NCBI GenBank assembly: GCA_031279975.1
Contig: JAITHL010000082.1
Location: 1 to 35,013 of the forward strand
From: Treponema sp.
GTDB lineage: Bacteria; Spirochaetota; Spirochaetia; Treponematales; Breznakiellaceae
Direction of reading: 5' to 3'
DNA: 35,013 nt
Position numbers and translations under genes: made by a program
Part shown: in pieces, positions 5,439 to 34,830 of the stretch
Position numbering within the stretch: position 1 is the stretch's first letter
Layout of the letters: every line of letters starts with the position of its first letter
Notes under the pieces: generated by a model
Database searches by the model: none
Seen by the model: the letters and a program-made list of their open reading frames with translations, nothing else
Told to the model about the DNA's origin: nothing

Positions 5439-5463
5439 GGGGGAATGGAGCCGCCATTCCCCC
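5439..5463. repeat. Perfect 10-bp intergenic hairpin flgE-flbD
   Basis: GGGGGAATGG-AGCCG-CCATTCCCCC; followed by a second nested hairpin CCGGA..GCCGGC/GCCGG..TCCGG. Confidence 0.8.
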
Positions 5464-11780: not shown

Positions 11781-11860
11781 ACGTTGCTGAACGTCAAGGC
11801 GGGCAGCGCTTCCCTTGGGAAGCGCTGAATAATTCAATCGGGATTGCGGACCTAAGGTCC
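11781..11860. repeat. Intergenic hairpin cluster fliP-fliQ
   Basis: ACGTT-GCTG-AACGT (11781-11794); CAGCGCTTCCC-TT-GGGAAGCGCTG (11804-11827); GGACCT-A-AGGTCC (11848-11860). Confidence 0.8.
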
Positions 11861-18568: not shown

Positions 18569-18685
18569 GCTGGTCTGAAACTTCAGTTTCAGACCAGCTT
18601 CCACTTAAAAACGCGGTTTCGCAAGGCTTTAGCCTGAGAAACCGCAAGACTTGTTCCGAAACCAACCGGGTTTTGGAACAAGTCT
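18569..18685. repeat. Three consecutive hairpins after flhG
   Basis: GCTGGTCTGAAACT-TC-AGTTTCAGACCAGC (18569-18598); GCGGTTTC..AGGCT-TT-AGCCT..GAAACCGC (18613-18645); AGACTTGTTCC..AAACC/GGTTT..GGAACAAGTCT (18647-18685). Confidence 0.88.
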
Positions 18686-26700: not shown

Positions 26701-29298
26701 CCCGGTTATAAGACCGGGGAACGGGCGTCGGTGAGTTTCCCTTCCAACAAAGAGGCCGCCGCCCTGGTGGTGTTGGAGCAGGGGGGCCGGGTGCTGAGGC
26801 GGGAGTGGGTTTCCTGCCAGGATACCGCAACCCGTTATGAATTCCTCGTCGAGGCTTCCATGGCGCCCAATCTCTATGCGCATGTTACCCTCCTCCAGCC
26901 CCACCTGCAAACCCGGAATGATCTTCCCCTCCGGCTCTATGGGATAGTCCCGGTCATGGTGGATGATCCTATTACCCGGCTTACGCCCCAGATTGACGCG
27001 CCGGAGCGCTGGCAGAGCGAATCGACGGCTTCTTTTACGGTGAGCGAGGGCAACGGGCGGGCCATGGCCTATACGGTGGCGGTGGTGGACGAGGGCCTGC
27101 TGGGGCTTACCCGGTATACCCTGCCGAATCCCCATGATACCTTTTACGCCCGGGAAGCGTCATTCTTGAAGTCCTGGGACCTCTACTCGGATATTATGGG
27201 CGCCTATGCGGGGAACCTTGAAACCCTGCTGGCCATAGGGGGCGGCGATGAGGGCCTTTTGGATGGGGGAAAAACGCCTGAACGGTTTAAGCCGGTGGTC
27301 CGCTTCTTTGGCCCCTATGAACTCAAGGCCGGGGAAAAGCGGCGGGAGGTCTTTGAGCTTCCCCCCTATGCCGGGTCCCTGCGGATCATGGTCCTGGGGG
27401 CCTCTTCAACCAAAGGGCCTCCGGCGCCCTATTCCTATGGCCGGGCCTATGGCGCGGCGGAACGGACGGTCCGGGTTTCCTCGGATATTATGATCTTTCC
27501 CACCCTGCCCCGGACCTTCTCGCCGGGGGATGAGGCGGTCGTTCCCGTTACCGTGGTTTCTTACACGCCGGTCAAACGGAAAGTCCGCCTCTCCATGGCC
27601 GTGGAGGGCGGGCGGCTTTTAGAGCCGGAAATCCGGGAACTCGATTTTGATAAACCCGGGGAACAGACGGTCCGCTACCGGGTCCGCGCGCCGGACCTGG
27701 CCGGTTCGATGGGCTTTGCGATCCGGGCAGAGTCTCCCGGCGTCAAGACCGCGGCGCATACCGCGGAGCGGGAGGTCCGTTCCACCGCCCTGCCGGTGAT
27801 CGTGGGCAGTTTCCGCCTGCTTGAGCCTGGAGCGTCCTGGACCGGAACCCTGCAATTTCCCGGGGTTCCGGGTTCTAACCGGGGCAAGGCGGAATTCTCC
27901 CGGCTGCCGCCCCTCAATGTGGAATCCCGGCTGGGGTATCTTATCACCTATCCCCACGGCTGTTTGGAACAAACCGCGAGCGCCGTGTTTCCCCAGCTCT
28001 ATTTGCACAAGGTCCTTGCCTTGGGGGAAGCGGAGCGCCGCGCTATACGGTCAAATGTGGCCGCCGGCATTACTAGGCTTGAGGGGTTCATGGTTCCCGG
28101 CGGCGGCTTTTCCTATTGGCCCGGAGCGGATACCGCCCATGCCTGGGGCAGTATCTATGCGGGCCACTTCCTGTTGGAGGCCCGGCGGGCCGGATATACG
28201 GTAAGGCCGGAACTGCTGGAATCATGGCTCCGTTTCCAGAAGGCGCAGGCATCCCAGTGGAACCGGGAGGATGCTCCGGCGGATCAGGCGTACCGGCTTT
28301 ATATCCTGGCCTTAGCGGGAGAGCCGGACCTGGGTTCCATGAACCGGCTGCGGGAGACGCGGAACCTGGACGGCCTTGCCGCCTGGCGTTTAGCCGCGGC
28401 CTATTGGTATGCGGGGCAGCGGGATATAGCCCGGACCATGGCGGAGGCTTTGCATACCCAGGTTAAGGATTACCGGGAATTGAGCGGCTCCTTTGGTTCC
28501 GCCCTGCGGGATAAGGCCGTGCTATTGGAAACCCTGCTCCTCCTGGGGGATGGGGCGCGGGCGCGTCCCCTGTACGAGGACCTGTCGGCGGCCCTCTCCG
28601 GGGAATCTTGGCTTTCCACCCAAGAAACCGCCTATGCCCTCATCGCCATGCTGCCCTATACAGCCCAGAAGGCCGGAACCGGACCTATCACCGTGGACTG
28701 CGCGTTTGGGGGCCCCGCTCAGACCTTGCGCTTTGATACTCCCGCGGCGGGGCTTGATGTGGGGAGCCTGCCGGGGTCTTCCGCCGGATTTAGCATACGC
28801 AATACCTCCGCCGTCCCCTGCTATGCCAAGATCACCGTCCAAGGACTGCCGGAGGAAGGCGCTGAAAGCGCCCTGGCCCAAGGGCTTTCCCTTTCGGTGG
28901 AGTACCGCCATGCCGGACGGGGTACGGCGGTGGACCCTGATGCTCTTGCCCTGGGAGCGGATATGGAAGTGCGGGTAACCCTGCGGAATACCGCTTCCCA
29001 GTCCATACCGGAAATAGCCCTGGCGCATCCCCTTCCCGCGTCCTGGGAGCTTGTCAATTACCGGCTTGGCGGAGCCGCATCAGGGGGATCGAACCCTTCC
29101 GGCGCTTCCTTTACCTACCAGGATATCCGGGACGACCGGGTGCTGACCTACTTTAACCTGAACCGGGGGGAACAAAAAACCGTGAGCTTCCGGGTTACGA
29201 AGGCCTATGAGGGGAGCTTTTTCCGGCCCGCGATCCATGCCTATGCCATGTACGACGAGTCCATCCGGGCCCTTGAACCGGGGGTGCGGCGCCGGTGA
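23719..29298 (+). CDS. Bacterial alpha-2-macroglobulin family (lipo)protein (YfhM-like)
   Basis: 1859 aa; thioester motif 'YPHGCLEQTASAVFPQLYL'; bait/A2M region; signal peptide ending 'LVLPVSC' (lipobox-like); adjacent to pbpC. Confidence 0.93.
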   Translation: MCVRIKAYPAVIVFLSVLLVLPVSCFAPRAPEPDPRAVAAVSRGIILRTAPVSVVFTQEQDTSRPVPKDCFRLIPRVPGKAAWQDALTLVFTPDEPLAPGKRYRAVVDGTSLGDGIGVFGFEFETQSPVVQVELDPVRLDENGYALVGGTARLEPGVPHDRIERIIRSGELGKPQWTHEQGIHRFVFPPVKQEEGARTVAVSWSGRPAGIRDQGFTTVLIPGYETFEAVRVSRPSRGFLEVLFSAPLKPEQDLRGFISLSGDTNIRYSVQGNVVRIFGSQEHEGITPGSRLLIQDLEDIRGKGLANPASYTVPEHWELPEVRFTGKGAVLPTTQGAAMAIETRNLSGVLVEAFQIYGNSMIQFLQVNNLSGVQELDRVGEPVWSRAFDFYPEPSPEALRGDINRWVRRGLDLSDLAQKYPDGMFHIRLSFRPRHVVYQCGAGHEDFSQLAFPDDSFPRFDRREGESSFWDTYENKWSYTWSQYLNDPCHPAFYIPTGDHTITVGRNVLVSDLGLMAKRSIDGSWLVAASNIRTAEPAAQGEIRVLNYQGRVLASLRTGPDGMAVIPNLEGGSGGSPAGTPGIPAFLYAESPLGRAYLKLNESLAMAVSHFDVAGGAPLQGIRGLLYGERGVWRPGDPIYLTFLLSDPGGTMGPDHPITFELEDPRGGVTGRQTLAAPVDGFYAIKTAVAPDALTGNWTARVRVGGKVFHKPLKIETVIPNRLKLNLDFGSSPYLDSAETPVFLEAAWLYGAPASGLKADVSVSLGDQETAFPGFGDYVFRDPSRSVRGERQELYQGGLDGEGKAAFTMELNPGDAAPGKLTARFMTRAFEPSGAASVEQISREYSPYSRYVGIKLPRGDASRNMLLTDTEHQADIVLLDRDGKPVAGKVAVNCAVYKLSWRWWWEKGAGEAAEFASALSRNPVMRETLTVSDGKGGWKFQARYPDWGRYLIVAQDASGGHSAAAIAYIDWPGWAGRAQEGGPDASAMLALTAGKPGYKTGERASVSFPSNKEAAALVVLEQGGRVLRREWVSCQDTATRYEFLVEASMAPNLYAHVTLLQPHLQTRNDLPLRLYGIVPVMVDDPITRLTPQIDAPERWQSESTASFTVSEGNGRAMAYTVAVVDEGLLGLTRYTLPNPHDTFYAREASFLKSWDLYSDIMGAYAGNLETLLAIGGGDEGLLDGGKTPERFKPVVRFFGPYELKAGEKRREVFELPPYAGSLRIMVLGASSTKGPPAPYSYGRAYGAAERTVRVSSDIMIFPTLPRTFSPGDEAVVPVTVVSYTPVKRKVRLSMAVEGGRLLEPEIRELDFDKPGEQTVRYRVRAPDLAGSMGFAIRAESPGVKTAAHTAEREVRSTALPVIVGSFRLLEPGASWTGTLQFPGVPGSNRGKAEFSRLPPLNVESRLGYLITYPHGCLEQTASAVFPQLYLHKVLALGEAERRAIRSNVAAGITRLEGFMVPGGGFSYWPGADTAHAWGSIYAGHFLLEARRAGYTVRPELLESWLRFQKAQASQWNREDAPADQAYRLYILALAGEPDLGSMNRLRETRNLDGLAAWRLAAAYWYAGQRDIARTMAEALHTQVKDYRELSGSFGSALRDKAVLLETLLLLGDGARARPLYEDLSAALSGESWLSTQETAYALIAMLPYTAQKAGTGPITVDCAFGGPAQTLRFDTPAAGLDVGSLPGSSAGFSIRNTSAVPCYAKITVQGLPEEGAESALAQGLSLSVEYRHAGRGTAVDPDALALGADMEVRVTLRNTASQSIPEIALAHPLPASWELVNYRLGGAASGGSNPSGASFTYQDIRDDRVLTYFNLNRGEQKTVSFRVTKAYEGSFFRPAIHAYAMYDESIRALEPGVRRR

Positions 29299-31619
29299 TT
29301 TCCAGAACCTTCCGGCGGCGGATAGGGGTATCGGGCCTTGCGGTCCTGGCCCTGATCTTTGCCCTGTCCCTGCCGGACCCCTTGGTTGCCCCGGATTATT
29401 CCCCGGCGCTCTATGACCGGGAGGGGCGGCTTTTGGGCGCCATGGCCGCCCGGGACGGCCAGTGGCGTTTTCCGCCGTCGGGAAAGACGCCTGAAAAATT
29501 TGCCGCGGCCCTCATCGAATTTGAGGATCGCCGTTTTTTCTACCACCCCGGGGTTGACCCCATAGCCCTGGTCCGGGCTTGCGTTATGAATTGGAAGGCC
29601 GGGCGGGTGGTTTCCGGCGGTTCTACCATTACCATGCAGACCCTGCGGCTCATACGGCGGGGCCGCCGGAGGACCCTGTTTGAAAAGGGGATGGAGGCGA
29701 TCCTGGCCTTGCGGCTGGAGATGGGAAGGTCTAAGGAGGCTATTCTGGCCCTCTACGCCGCCAACGCGCCCTTTGGGGGTAATGTGGTGGGCCTGGACGC
29801 AGCCTGTTGGCGCTGGTTCGGCCGTTCGGCCCAAGAATTCTCCTGGGCCGAGGCCGCCCTCTTGGCGGTGCTTCCCAACAGTCCGGCGCTGATAAATCCA
29901 GGCCGGAACCGGGACATCCTGCGGCGGAAACGGGACGCCCTGTTGGAACGGCTTCACCGGCGTTCTTATTTTGACGGGGAAACGCTCCGCCTGGCCTTAC
30001 AGGAGGAGCTGCCCGAAGAACCCCGGCCCTTGCCCCGGCTGGCGCCGCATCTCCTGGCCCGGCTGGTTCAGAAACCTGCCATCCCCCCAGGGCCTATACA
30101 GACGACCTTGGACCTGGCCGTGCAGGAGCGGGCCCGGGCCATCCTGAACCGGGCGTCAGAGCGCTTTGCCGCCCAGGGGATCATGAACGGCGCGTGCCTC
30201 ATCCTGGATACCCCTACCGGAGCGCCGGTCGCCTATGTCGGCAATACCAGGACCCCGGCGGCGGGGGATGTGGACCTGATTACCGCTCCCCGCAGTTCCG
30301 GCAGCCTCCTCAAACCCGTGCTGTTTGCCGCCATGCTCGATTCGGGGGATATACTCCCCGCCGCGTTGGTAAGCGATATTCCCACCAGGGTGGGAAGTTA
30401 CAGCCCGGAGAACCTCAGCCGGAGTTATCAAGGGGCGGTCCCGGCCAATGAAGCCCTCGCCCGGTCCCTCAATATTCCCGCGGTCCGTTCCCTCCGCCGC
30501 TACGGGGTGGACCGTTTTGCCCGGCTGCTCCGGTCCCTGGGTTTGAGCACCCTGTTCCGTCCGGGGGACGCCTATGGGCTGCCCCTGATCCTCGGCGGCG
30601 CGGAGGTAACTCTGGAAGAAATAACCGGCCTCTATGCCCGGCTTGCCCGGACCGCCGATCCCGGACGCTTCGGCGCGGACGGGCCGGGGCATATCTCCCC
30701 TGGGGCCGCGTGGCTTACTCTGGAAGCCTTGATCGACGCGGTCCGCCCGGGCGAAGAGGCCCAGTGGCAGGACTATGCCGGCTCCCGGCGCATTGCCTGG
30801 AAGACCGGCACCAGTTTCGGCTTTCGGGATGCCTGGGCTGTCGGAGTTACCCCCCGCTGGACCGTGGGGGTCTGGATAGGGAACGCCACCGGCGAGGGCC
30901 GGGCGGAACTGCGGAGCGCCCTTACCGCCGCGCCGGTGCTCTTTGATCTGTTCTCGGCCCTGGATTCCTTTGGTTCCCCTGGCGATCCGGGGGGCGGGTG
31001 GTTTTCCCAGCCCGCGGAATTCCTGAAAAGCCAGGAGGTATGCGCCTTTTCAGGCTTTCCCCCCGGTCCTGACTGCCGCTCCCTGCGGATTTCCCTGGCC
31101 CCCCGGTCCGCGCCGCCCCACCGGCCCTGCCCCTTTTGCCGTACTGTTTTGGTGGATGAACAGGGGCAATACCGGGTTGTTCTGGAATCCGGGGAGGGGA
31201 AACCGGTCCGGGAAAAGCAATGGTTTGTCCTTCCGCCGGCGGAGGAGTGGTATTACCGGAAGCGGCATCTGGACTATAAGCCCCTGCCGCCCTGGAGCCG
31301 GGACGTTTTGGCCGGCGGAAGGCCCGCGGGCGAAGCGTCCTCCGCGGCCCTGGCCCTGTTTAACCCGAATCCGGGCTCCCAGGTCTATATTCCCCGGGAA
31401 CTTGACGGCGGCGAAGGCCGTATCGTGTTTTCCGCCGCCCACCGGGATCCCCGGGCGCTGATCTACTGGCATCTGGACGACGCCTATCTGGGCAAGACCG
31501 GGGTATTTCATGAGTTGGAAGCCCGGCCTGGCCCGGGCCGGCATACCCTTACCCTGGTGGACCGGATGGGAAATACCATAAGCCGGGCCTTCGAGGTACT
31601 GGAAAAACCCGGCCCTTAA
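29295..31619 (+). CDS. pbpC: Penicillin-binding protein 1C
   Basis: Transglycosylase 'EFEDRRFFYHPGVDPIALVRA', 'GGSTITMQ', transpeptidase 'SSGSLLKPVL' and 'WKTGTSFGFRDAW', C-terminal BiPBP_C-like region; GTGA overlap with A2M. Confidence 0.95.
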   Translation: MISRTFRRRIGVSGLAVLALIFALSLPDPLVAPDYSPALYDREGRLLGAMAARDGQWRFPPSGKTPEKFAAALIEFEDRRFFYHPGVDPIALVRACVMNWKAGRVVSGGSTITMQTLRLIRRGRRRTLFEKGMEAILALRLEMGRSKEAILALYAANAPFGGNVVGLDAACWRWFGRSAQEFSWAEAALLAVLPNSPALINPGRNRDILRRKRDALLERLHRRSYFDGETLRLALQEELPEEPRPLPRLAPHLLARLVQKPAIPPGPIQTTLDLAVQERARAILNRASERFAAQGIMNGACLILDTPTGAPVAYVGNTRTPAAGDVDLITAPRSSGSLLKPVLFAAMLDSGDILPAALVSDIPTRVGSYSPENLSRSYQGAVPANEALARSLNIPAVRSLRRYGVDRFARLLRSLGLSTLFRPGDAYGLPLILGGAEVTLEEITGLYARLARTADPGRFGADGPGHISPGAAWLTLEALIDAVRPGEEAQWQDYAGSRRIAWKTGTSFGFRDAWAVGVTPRWTVGVWIGNATGEGRAELRSALTAAPVLFDLFSALDSFGSPGDPGGGWFSQPAEFLKSQEVCAFSGFPPGPDCRSLRISLAPRSAPPHRPCPFCRTVLVDEQGQYRVVLESGEGKPVREKQWFVLPPAEEWYYRKRHLDYKPLPPWSRDVLAGGRPAGEASSAALALFNPNPGSQVYIPRELDGGEGRIVFSAAHRDPRALIYWHLDDAYLGKTGVFHELEARPGPGRHTLTLVDRMGNTISRAFEVLEKPGP

Positions 31620-31639
31620 CGCGGGGGGGCCGGGGGGCG

Positions 31640-31787
31640 GGCAATCCGGCGCCGCCGGATTGCCTCGGAGTTTTGCCAAAGGCAAAACTCCACTCGGCCT
31701 GGAGTTTTGGGCGCTGCCCAAAACTCCCTAATGGTTCCGCTGCGCGGAACCACCCCGGCGGGGGCGTTACGGGGGAAGATCCCCCGT
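31640..31787. repeat. Tandem array of five (possibly six) perfect short-loop hairpins
   Basis: GGCAATCCGGC-GCC-GCCGGATTGCC; GGAGTTTTGCC-AAA-GGCAAAACTCC; GGAGTTTTGGGC-GCT-GCCCAAAACTCC; TGGTTCCGC-TGC-GCGGAACCA; CCCC-GGC-GGGG; ACGGGGG-AAGAT-CCCCCGT. Confidence 0.92.
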
Positions 31788-31837
31788 TGAGGGGAGGGGC
31801 CGCCCGCGTCCGCCTGAAAAAATTAGCATTGCCGGTA

Positions 31838-31866
31838 TTGACATAAGAATAAGAATATGGTATAAA
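31838..31866 (+). promoter_or_regulatory. Near-consensus sigma-70 promoter
   Basis: TTGACA (31838-31843) - 17 nt - TATAAA (31861-31866), upstream of ATG 31918. Confidence 0.8.
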
Positions 31867-31917: not shown

Positions 31918-33642
31918 ATGGCAGAATCACAAAAAACACCTTCCCTGGTTCCCGATTACGATGACCGCGTGGAGACGCTTAATCTATCCAACCGTTCCAC
32001 CAACGCCCTCAAGCTGGCGGGTATTAGGGACATAGAACAATTTTTAAATATTAACGAGCGCGATGTTTGCGGCATAAAAAACATTGGCGCGAAGAGCGCT
32101 GAAGAAATATTGCAATGCCAAAAAAGGCTGCTGGGCTACGGGCTGCAAAAGCAGAACGCGCTGTCCGCTCTGGAGCAGCCGGTATATGAGCTTAATATTT
32201 CCGTCCGCGCCGCGAATGTTCTGGCGAAGAACGGCGTCAATACTATTGATAAACTGGTGAACATGCGGGATGAAGATATTGAGCAATTGAAAAAAATCGG
32301 GAAGAAAACGGTAAAAGAAATAATGTATTGCAAAAGGGCCCTGTCCGCCTTGCCGGTTAATAACGCCGCCCCTGAAACAAGGATCGATATACGCAAGCAC
32401 CGGCTTTTAAAACTCCAGAACGCCTATCAGATGATACCCGGACACCGCCGGGACAGGGCTGTTCAGGATTATTTATCCGCGGTTTCAGGCATTGAGGCAA
32501 GCCTCATCATAAAGGAAAGCGGGAATTTCTTGCCGTCATTACACAGCGTCAGCGATATTGTTTCAGTCTTTGAGGAAGCGACGAATAATACTTCCAACAC
32601 GCAGAAAGTCCTGTTCCTCCTGGGCATCTTTGCTTTTGATGTACGGGCGAGCCTTGACCGGGCCTTCGGCGCCCTGTTAAGCGAAGAAAGTTTCGGGCGT
32701 TTTTTGAACATATTGGAAAAACGCATAGCCGGGCAGGTTTTGCAGGAGATAGCGGACTCCCTGGGGCTTACCCGCGAAAGGGTAAGGCAGCTTGAATGCA
32801 AGGGAATAAAGCTGTTAAATGAGCATTTAATGCCCCTATGCGTGGATATTATCGCGTTTATCGACATGGAAAACAACTTTGAAAAAATAATAACCCATGA
32901 GGAGCTGCGCCGGTGTATTGGAGACGCGAAGTATTTCGATCTGTTTTTATACGCCATGAAAACAAACGGCCCCTGGGATGCCTATCAATACCATAAGCGG
33001 TTTCACGTCTTCTGCCGCCGGGACCTGTATGATCGAATCGACGCGCTTTCGGGATATATGAACGCTTTGCCGGCGATTATCGACAGGGACCAGAAAGACG
33101 CGGCGCTTGAGTCCCTGGGCGTCCAGCTTGAACTGCCCTTAAAAATTATCATGATGGAATTCGTGAACGCCTATAAACCGGCGGGAAGGGTATACTACCG
33201 GGGAAAACTATCCTTGGCGAGAATGTACGATTATGTCCTTGAAAAGTATTACCCCGAGGGGATTAAACTATTTGACGACGCCATCATAGAATCCTTTAAG
33301 AAGCAGGTTGTTGACGTTTTCGGAGAGATTGACGTTTCTGAAAATAATCACGCGATTTATTCAAGAATCACCAGCGTTTCCGTCTTGTGCGACCGGGGCA
33401 CGTATATACACCCCTGTTTTGTAACGATAGACGCCGGGTTAATCGACGAGATAGCCTCCCACATTCTCATCTCCCCCAAGGGCGGCCTTTCCTTCGGCGA
33501 GTTATTTGAGGATTTTAGGCAGAAACTGGCCCTGCGGTCGAACATCAACAATAAATATTTCCTGCACGGCGCGCTTGAGCTGCGCTTAAAGGACCGGTTT
33601 TTGTTTACCAGGGACGCCATTGTCAAGAAGACGAAAACATGA
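31918..33642 (+). CDS. Protein with two RNAP alpha-CTD-like domains, a sigma-70 region-4-like HTH and a long C-terminal region of unknown function
   Basis: 'LNLSNRSTNALKLAGIRDIEQFLNINERDVCGIKNIGAKSAEEI' and 'LNISVRAANVLAKNGVNTIDKLVNMRDEDIEQLKKIGKKTVKEI' (alpha-CTD); 'VLQEIADSLGLTRERVRQLECKGIKLL' (sigma r4). Confidence 0.85.
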   Translation: MAESQKTPSLVPDYDDRVETLNLSNRSTNALKLAGIRDIEQFLNINERDVCGIKNIGAKSAEEILQCQKRLLGYGLQKQNALSALEQPVYELNISVRAANVLAKNGVNTIDKLVNMRDEDIEQLKKIGKKTVKEIMYCKRALSALPVNNAAPETRIDIRKHRLLKLQNAYQMIPGHRRDRAVQDYLSAVSGIEASLIIKESGNFLPSLHSVSDIVSVFEEATNNTSNTQKVLFLLGIFAFDVRASLDRAFGALLSEESFGRFLNILEKRIAGQVLQEIADSLGLTRERVRQLECKGIKLLNEHLMPLCVDIIAFIDMENNFEKIITHEELRRCIGDAKYFDLFLYAMKTNGPWDAYQYHKRFHVFCRRDLYDRIDALSGYMNALPAIIDRDQKDAALESLGVQLELPLKIIMMEFVNAYKPAGRVYYRGKLSLARMYDYVLEKYYPEGIKLFDDAIIESFKKQVVDVFGEIDVSENNHAIYSRITSVSVLCDRGTYIHPCFVTIDAGLIDEIASHILISPKGGLSFGELFEDFRQKLALRSNINNKYFLHGALELRLKDRFLFTRDAIVKKTKT

Positions 33643-33643
33643 G

Positions 33644-33664
33644 GCGCCGCCGCGTCAGCGGCGC
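33644..33664. terminator. Hairpin between convergent genes (possible bidirectional terminator)
   Basis: GCGCCGC-CGCGTCA-GCGGCGC; only 12 bp between the two stop codons; no long T-run. Confidence 0.4.
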
Positions 33665-34830
33665 TGTTTGCCCGGCCTGGCCTGACAGGAGCGAAACAGG
33701 GGCTTAAAATGTTCCCAGGGCATTTCCCGCGCCCCAAGGCTGATTTTGTACGGATAGCCTCCGGGGCCGAAGTCCCAGAAAGCGTATCCCTGTTTTTCAA
33801 GATACCGGGCCGTGAGGATAATCTGCGCCGTTCCCGCGGAAGATACGTCGTGGTAGCCGGTGTAGCTGGTGTATATCCGCCCTACCGCCGCCCCGATTTC
33901 CCCGGCGGCCAGGGCGCCGTCTTGATACAGGGCGAACGAGACCGGCCTTGCCGGCCCCCCGGCGCCGCGGAGTATCGAAAAATAGTATTGGAACGCGGCG
34001 GTCAGCCCCATATCGCCGTGGACAGCGACGCAGCGTTTCATAACCGCGTCAAAATCCGCGCCGTAACGCAGCGTATAGCGCCGCCCGTTCTTTTTCAGAT
34101 GGCGGCCTATGGTTTTCCCAATATGGAGATTATGAAAGAAAAGAACGGACCGTCCGGGGCGGAAGTGGGGGGTAATAATGACCGCCTCTTGGGGGTTTCC
34201 CTTGATATCGATATAAAAACCGCGGCGCAGCAGCCGCTGTATAAGCCCCTCCCCTTCGGGCAGCCGGTTAGGGGGGATAAGCGCCGCGAGACTGGCCGCG
34301 TCTTCCCCTGGATAGCGGAGCCGCAGCATGGTTAGCAAGTCGCTCATGGCCTGGGCGTAGGCTCCCTGTTGGCAATAGAGCATGCCCCGGTTATGCAAGG
34401 CGTTGGCATTGTCCGGCTCAAGGCGTATGGTCTGGGAATAATCCTGGCCCGCTAAACCCGGGCGGTTCTGCCGGAAATAAACATTTCCCCGGTTGTGGAA
34501 TGCCCCGGCGTTGCCCGGCTCAAGGCGTATGGCTTGGGAATAGTCCTGGACCGCCTCATCGTAGCGGCGATTCCGGTCATAGGCCATGCCGCGGTTATAA
34601 AAAGCGCCGGCATTTTCAGGCTCTATGCGTATCAGCGCCGTGAAGTCCCGCGCCGCCGCGTCGAATAGGCCGAGGTCGTAATAGGCGCAGCCCCGGCCGC
34701 TATAGGCGCCGCCGTGTTCTGGGTTAAGCCGCAGGGCGTTGGTAAAGGCTTCAACAGCCGGGCGGAGCAGGCCCTCTTGTTGCAGTCTTAGGCCCTTAAT
34801 ATACCAAATTTCGGCGCTTAATGGTTTCAT
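33655..34830 (-). CDS. TPR-repeat protein fused to a C-terminal leucyl/phenylalanyl-tRNA--protein transferase (Aat)-like domain
   Basis: About 5 TPRs ('GAFYNRGMAYDRNRRYDEAVQDYSQAIRLEPGNAGAFHNRGNVYF...'); C-term 'NLHIGKTIGRHLKKNGRRYTLRYGADFDAVMKRCVAVHGD...VSFALYQDGALAAGEIGAAVGRIYTSYTGYHDVSSAGTAQIILTARYLEKQGYAFWDFGPGGYPYKISLGAREMPWEHF'. Confidence 0.82.
   Translation of the reverse strand: MKPLSAEIWYIKGLRLQQEGLLRPAVEAFTNALRLNPEHGGAYSGRGCAYYDLGLFDAAARDFTALIRIEPENAGAFYNRGMAYDRNRRYDEAVQDYSQAIRLEPGNAGAFHNRGNVYFRQNRPGLAGQDYSQTIRLEPDNANALHNRGMLYCQQGAYAQAMSDLLTMLRLRYPGEDAASLAALIPPNRLPEGEGLIQRLLRRGFYIDIKGNPQEAVIITPHFRPGRSVLFFHNLHIGKTIGRHLKKNGRRYTLRYGADFDAVMKRCVAVHGDMGLTAAFQYYFSILRGAGGPARPVSFALYQDGALAAGEIGAAVGRIYTSYTGYHDVSSAGTAQIILTARYLEKQGYAFWDFGPGGYPYKISLGAREMPWEHFKPLFRSCQARPGKQRR
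34415..34549 (-). repeat. Two near-identical segments 102 bp apart within the TPR coding region
   Basis: GGCTCAAGGCGTATGGtcTGGGAATAaTCCTGG and GGCTCAAGGCGTATGGctTGGGAATAgTCCTGG; 34-codon TPR period. Confidence 0.8.

Follow-up and report, generated by a model that had tools for sequence, protein, structure and literature searches.

Insertion sequences of the IS4 family have direct repeats of about 10 bp and a transposase with the signature Y(2)R(3)E(6)K, the ends of IS231 being of the form CAT(7N)AA(2N)TAA with repeats of 10-12 bp (PMC2266710). Among dispersed palindromes of another sort, the REPs, there are stem sub-families with alternative complementary residues (PMC3733652), and in plastid hairpins the loop can be found reversed on an unchanged stem (PMC3351433). 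A search of the literature for a hairpin-string repeat in treponemes found none, and a paper on termite spirochaetes (PMC13067680) carries no mention of palindromes. The window analyzed here is a 35,013-nucleotide stretch of DNA from Treponema sp. (contig JAITHL010000082.1 of assembly GCA_031279975.1) in which such a string lies between two genes.

A palindrome scan of 31640-31787 gives four near-adjacent perfect stems of 9-12 bp and one of 8 bp, all described here on the plus strand. H1 (31640..31664) is GGCAATCCGGC-GCC-GCCGGATTGCC, with 11 bp and the loop GCC, or 12 bp with a 1-nt loop; H2 (31667..31691) is GGAGTTTTGCC-AAA-GGCAAAACTCC, with 11 bp and the loop AAA; H3 (31701..31727), GGAGTTTTGGGC-GCT-GCCCAAAACTCC, has 12 bp and the loop GCT; and H4 (31732..31752), TGGTTCCGC-TGC-GCGGAACCA, has 9 bp and the loop TGC. 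The scan then gives the short stem CCCC-GGC-GGGG (31753-31763) and finally H5 (31769..31787), ACGGGGGA-AGA-TCCCCCGT, whose 8 bp with the loop AGA can equally be written as 7 bp with the loop AAGAT. Between 31620 and 31799 the four stems of at least 9 bp (loop of at most 5) compare with a mean of 0.018, and never more than 2, when the same stretch is dinucleotide-shuffled 2000 times. The row of perfect short-loop hairpins described in the initial annotation thus stands at its positions, far above the frequency in shuffled sequence, and chance palindromes are ruled out by the shuffles. Equally borne out are the sharing of GGAGTTTTG by stems 2 and 3 and the exclusion of ordinary intrinsic termination, no T-run following any stem in the window and the scanner listing 0 intrinsic-terminator-like sites. 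The predicted RNA fold of the hairpin stretch is at -137.7 kcal/mol (z = -5.4), and no Rfam covariance model matches over the hairpin element.

Upstream is a gene for a pbpC-type penicillin-binding protein (29295..31619, plus strand; Pfam PF00912, PF00905, PF06832) whose TAA stop is 3 bases 5' of the repeat's G-run, its relatives ending at about the same residue. Downstream, on the same strand, the gene for an RNA polymerase alpha-CTD / sigma-70 region 4 protein (31918..33642; Pfam PF03118, PF04545) is preceded, beyond the repeat, by a promoter-like TTGACA-17-TATAAA read in the sequence at 31838..31866, a site unlisted by the scanner, whose rule requires a final T. Because relatives have other genes downstream of pbpC, the search there for an orthologous empty site gave none. 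Further along, on the minus strand (33655-34830), is a gene for a TPR protein fused to a leucyl/phenylalanyl-tRNA-transferase / GNAT-like domain. Elsewhere in the window, and outside the hairpin-string repeat, two more long perfect hairpins (5439-5463 and 11804-11827) lie between flagellar genes.

With 31618-31800 as the blastn query against the assembly of the window's genome (2.62 Mb, 249 contigs, 78% complete), the whole string of about 165 bp is found at about 40 places, with 78-97% identity and unrelated flanks; the copy in the window, of the hairpin-string form and with both TIRs missing, occupies 31620..31800 on the plus strand. The recurrence for which the initial annotation proposed a genome-wide search is thus there, and its view that the palindromes all differ and form no single repeated unit holds inside the window and fails across the genome, where the string itself is the dispersed unit. 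Several contigs end within copies, as expected of a repeat. Might the strings then be artefacts of assembly, or accidents of composition? The genome is fragmented, with contig ends inside copies, and a few copies at such ends (L021, L024, L025, L027) look low-quality, but the excess over shuffles, the independent flanks of the copies and the presence of related strings in named records of other assemblies leave that notion with a negligible probability. Of 38 copies, 22 have the same strand as the left neighbour and 16 the opposite. Strict insertion specificity at stop codons, hinted at by several copies, was rejected as only 8 of the 38 begin 14 bp or less from a stop on the same strand. In variant copies H2 is absent, or the alternative hairpins CTATCCGGC, AGAGTTTGCGC and GCCAAAGCCGC replace part of the string.

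Aligned copies of the string have a common outer motif, TCAACAACTTAA, with its reverse complement on the far side. This TIR core has 174 occurrences in the window's genome with at most one mismatch, where its reversed control has 4, and the TIR 18-mer has 152 matches with at most two mismatches against 0. The full TIR of complete elements is 18 bp, CACTGTCAACAACTTAAG, at both ends, and the elements bounded by such pairs are 90-424 bp long. Directly outside the TIRs are exact 10-bp target duplications (GATGAAGCCC, GGCGGGACGC, GGAGAAACAG, GGTCAATGTT and GCAGCCGCTC are examples), found with 7 of the 37 complete elements in the window's genome and 8 of 20 in relatives; duplications matching at 9 or more of the 10 positions number 10 and 13 respectively, against 0.43 and 0.73 in permuted pairings. 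At other lengths there is one exact duplication, of 9 bp, and none at 8, 11 or 12 bp. In the copy within the window no TIR is seen even at three mismatches and the target duplication is also absent; assigned by homology of its internal sequence, it is therefore called a relic and not an intact member. Among 202 genomes of the taxonomic family searched at up to two mismatches, 86 have the TIR; they belong to 30 of 59 genera, and controls are near zero. In a few genomes the TIR is expanded: the related genome G074 (e.g. L226, L232 and L238), with 415 TIR matches, has a greatly enlarged set of elements bounded by these ends.

How is the string placed within the element? A simple element (L131) reads CTTAAGGGGGGACCGGGG-GGCCTTTCGGCC-CCCCGGCGGGGGCGTT..., and in the string form (L013, L015) GGCCTTTCGGCC is replaced by GGCG and H1-H4, between the same CCGGGG and CCCCGG. 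These common flanking arms imply that four hairpins have been put into the apical loop of the first G/C hairpin of the element. By-eye alignment of the window with the simple element CCGGGGGGCCTTTCGGCCCCCCGG places the left arm CCGGGG of the outer stem at 31630..31635 and its right arm CCCCGG at 31753..31758, both on the plus strand, and H5 is common to the simple and the hairpin-string forms of the mini-transposon.

A partner was found solely through TIR pairs about 1.35 kb apart in two relatives. One (L218, in genome G033) is an intact IS of 1347 bp with the TIR at both ends and a perfect 10-bp duplication, GGAGCGCGCC; its 430-aa transposase matches the NCBIfam IS4 family at 150.5 bits (cut-off 115) and Pfam DDE_Tnp_1 at 6e-19, and carries Y(2)R(3)E(6)K. 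The other (L219, in G049) is similar, about 1.35 kb, with no visible duplication, and the TIR of both, CACTGTCAACAAGTTAAG, is one base off CACTGTCAACAACTTAAG. In the window's 78%-complete assembly no intact transposase was found, only broken copies, some of them directly inside a TIR: relics next to the TIR are at C195:28524 (TIR at C195:28498), C31:2698 (TIR at C31:2671) and C51:25320-26226, the TIRs at such relics being CACTGTCAACAACATAAG / CGCTGTCAACAACTTAAG. A DDE_Tnp_1 family search alone turned up just two weak fragments there, without TIRs. An intermediate is provided by L269, an IS reduced to a TIR, the last transposase codons and the MITE end. The TIR, CAC(7N)AA(2N)TAA, matches the IS231 consensus at every conserved position but the third, where C and not T is present, and by its ends the family accordingly falls outside the IS231 subgroup. 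Very probably, then, the string in the window is a degenerate copy of a MITE mobilised in trans by a DDE transposase of the IS4 family.

Of the roles offered in the initial annotation, 'REP-like element' and 'transposase substrate' came nearest the truth, with the IS4-type MITE supported and the RAYT-type REP disfavoured. That the palindromes are of REP/BIME type, mobilised by a RAYT (a Y1 tyrosine transposase acting on single-stranded hairpins), might be thought from the four Y1_Tnp genes in the genome and from the dispersed, intergenic, hairpin-forming nature of the string, REPs often being downstream of genes (PMC3733652). Against this, none of the four Y1_Tnp loci (L040-L043) has an adjacent copy of the string, and the only trace of the family there is a TIR/MITE fragment on the far edge of one locus; H1-H4, in 31640-31752 as in the copies, are not accompanied by an unpaired GTAG or CGTC tag as defined in PMC3733652; and TIRs with exact 10-bp duplications fit a DDE transposase and not Y1 transposition. 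We regard mobilisation by a RAYT as very unlikely. A perfect palindrome elsewhere in the window, GCTGGTCTGAAACT-TC-AGTTTCAGACCAGC at 18569-18598 after an flhG-like gene, is a possible REP of this genome: its core TCTGAAACT has 11 occurrences in the genome DNA examined and also borders a broken Y1_Tnp gene (L040 1484-1515).

An exact-pattern scan of 85,462 genomes for H2 gave 54 stretches, most of them in spirochaete MAGs titled Treponema or Spirochaetaceae, which are taken to be from the termite gut, where two papers place spirochaetes of this kind (PMC13067680, PMC7024585). In the 54 stretches, which had been selected for one hairpin (H2), there are 257 perfect hairpins and 16 strings of at least three, numbers that fall to 10 and 0 when complementarity is broken by C<->T swapping. 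About 20 further spirochaete records have the H2 stem GGAGTTTTGCC, the strings that contain it being different. One MAG, Cd354_bin69, has a four-hairpin string, CAATCCGGC / GGAGTTTCCGC / GGAGTTTTGCC / CAATGTGC, which shares H1- and H2-type stems with the window and lies within an element of 332-344 bp (L098 89-422, L091 5629-5960, L095 2226-2569) with TIRs, GTTTTGGCnAAATCAAA..., unrelated to the IS4-type TIR, so that similar strings ride in two different mini-transposon families. In another record, from a Spirochaetia bacterium (MS502-93; L089 4115-4915), two hairpins, one of them with the H2 stem, stand in frame inside a gene which from its reading we take to be truA, as about 16 extra codons, RFSCLTEFCRGQNSLR. 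A contig assigned to Bacteroidales (Iy174_bin98; L080 435-459) also has the H2 hairpin, amid G/C-rich sequence of a similar kind, by transfer or mis-binning. In a Cyanobacteria MAG, RA.bin105 (L073, L100, L105, L117), a GGAGTTTTGCC hairpin of its own is repeated, always in one context, which is a different one.

Is the four-hairpin string perhaps an autonomous palindromic module, RPE-like and entering other elements and genes by a route of its own, for which the IS4-type MITE is just one carrier? Such a module is compatible with an IS4-type MITE as the explanation of complete elements and competes with it solely over the string. A recognisable left TIR is kept in only about 16 of the 38 hairpin-string copies, and several TIR-less copies have the same left edge and stems identical or nearly so to the consensus; with many such copies, some may be bare-string copies, or homogenised by conversion, and not have been transposed with TIRs. 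To these near-identical copies, which may reflect decay, deletion, conversion or bare copying, the module reading adds the recurrence of the H2 stem in different strings, the Cd354_bin69 element with its unrelated TIRs and the hairpins inside the apparent truA. Nevertheless neither a boundary duplication nor an enzyme was found for the bare string, and H2 is just 25 bp, so that the sharing could come from element exchange together with convergence. We hold an autonomous module to be a tentative possibility.

Across 27 aligned copies 95.5% of stem cells pair, and for H1 the figure is 99.3%, with three pairs having changes on both sides. Two-sided changes affect 13 pairs, where shuffles give 3.9, and 28 cells, where they give 5.1 (0/500, which is not a probability since the shuffle leaves relatedness in), and sliding the partner arm, a control that keeps relatedness, abolishes the compensation signal. 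Mean pairwise difference per site is 0.083 in arms, 0.181 in spacers and 0.551 in loops. In copies with a recognisable left TIR, changes are at 34/187 in the TIR and 36/921 in the arms (Fisher p 1.7e-10), some of the TIR variation predating insertion. The loops of the same 27 copies come in two orientations: GTT in 12 and AAC in 8 for H1, and AAA in 11 and TTT in 11 for H2; the loops of H3 are GTT 10 / AAC 1, AAA 3 / TTT 2 and CTT 3 / AAG 2, and those of H4 TGC 13 / GCA 2 and TAC 2 / GTA 2. Such reverse-complement pairs are what inversion of a hairpin tip gives, and they point to at least some fold-back events. Fold-back template switching, another of the origins suggested initially, may in that way explain the inverted loops, but accounts neither for the spread to about 40 copies with common ends nor for the 10-bp target duplications in complete relatives.

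The paired changes are expected whether the fold is under selection or arms are repaired from one another as templates. A role for the string as a conserved cis-regulatory or structured RNA, in mRNA 3'-end protection, processing or termination and kept by selection at many genes, would accord with the compensatory changes, with stems diverging more slowly than spacers and with those copies that start close to a same-strand stop codon. It is unlikely given that copies are found in both orientations with respect to the left neighbour, that there are neither T-runs nor an Rfam match, and that mobile-element anatomy explains the dispersal without an RNA role.

The mini-transposon origin of the hairpin string is well supported; the cause of stem preservation we infer. 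On the IS4-type reading the element would have spread by cut-and-paste transposition into intergenic DNA. Its stems may have been kept by selection for an RNA fold, or for harmlessness through insulation of neighbouring transcripts, and/or by palindrome-directed repair in which one arm would template the other and which would also flip the loops. If the copy in the window acts at all, it would most likely do so as a structured but passive spacer within the 3' UTR of pbpC, before the promoter-like site of the next gene. More speculative, and rather doubtful, is a wider scheme in which four-hairpin strings would be the interchangeable cargo of unrelated mini-transposon families in gut treponemes, partly copied without ends and kept as perfect palindromes by arm-templated repair that would also invert the loops so often that the two orientations approach 1:1.

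What began as an odd string of palindromes has become an identified mobile family with its ends, target duplication, enzyme family and dead partner, and its TIR occurs in 86 of 202 genomes searched, in a bacterial group on whose repeats no paper was found. As a selfish element of a gut spirochaete the string belongs to a known kind, what is unusual being its cargo of hairpins, and the more interesting part is the maintenance of the palindromes and the sharing of cargo between unrelated elements. Paired stem changes and two-way loops over about 40 paralogues are a natural data set for RNA selection versus self-templated repair and, were the latter reading true, a palindrome-keeping mutational process would be visible in natural sequence.

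With IS4-family insertion sequences near IS231 and their non-autonomous derivatives the family has in common the 10-bp duplication, the TIR tip CA with AA at positions 11-12 and TAA at 15-17, and a DDE transposase with the YREK signature in an autonomous partner, here in a related genome; it differs in that the element is 90-424 bp, geneless and almost wholly G/C hairpins. Like bacterial MITEs it is short, non-coding, bounded by TIRs, flanked by duplications, present in many copies and derived from an IS end (L269), whereas the nesting of four different perfect hairpins in place of an apical loop, kept intact by paired changes, sets it apart. REPs and BIMEs resemble it as dispersed intergenic palindromes in mosaics, with stem sub-families differing by complementary residues (PMC3733652), but have GTAG/CGTC tags and a linked RAYT where this family has a TIR and a 10-bp duplication. 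Rickettsia palindromic elements, likened by description only, share palindromes between genes and sometimes in frame inside them, as in the apparent truA, the copy in the window being intergenic. The small inversions of chloroplast hairpin loops share the reversed loop on an unchanged stem (PMC3351433); the difference is that here they recur among the paralogues of a bacterial mobile element.
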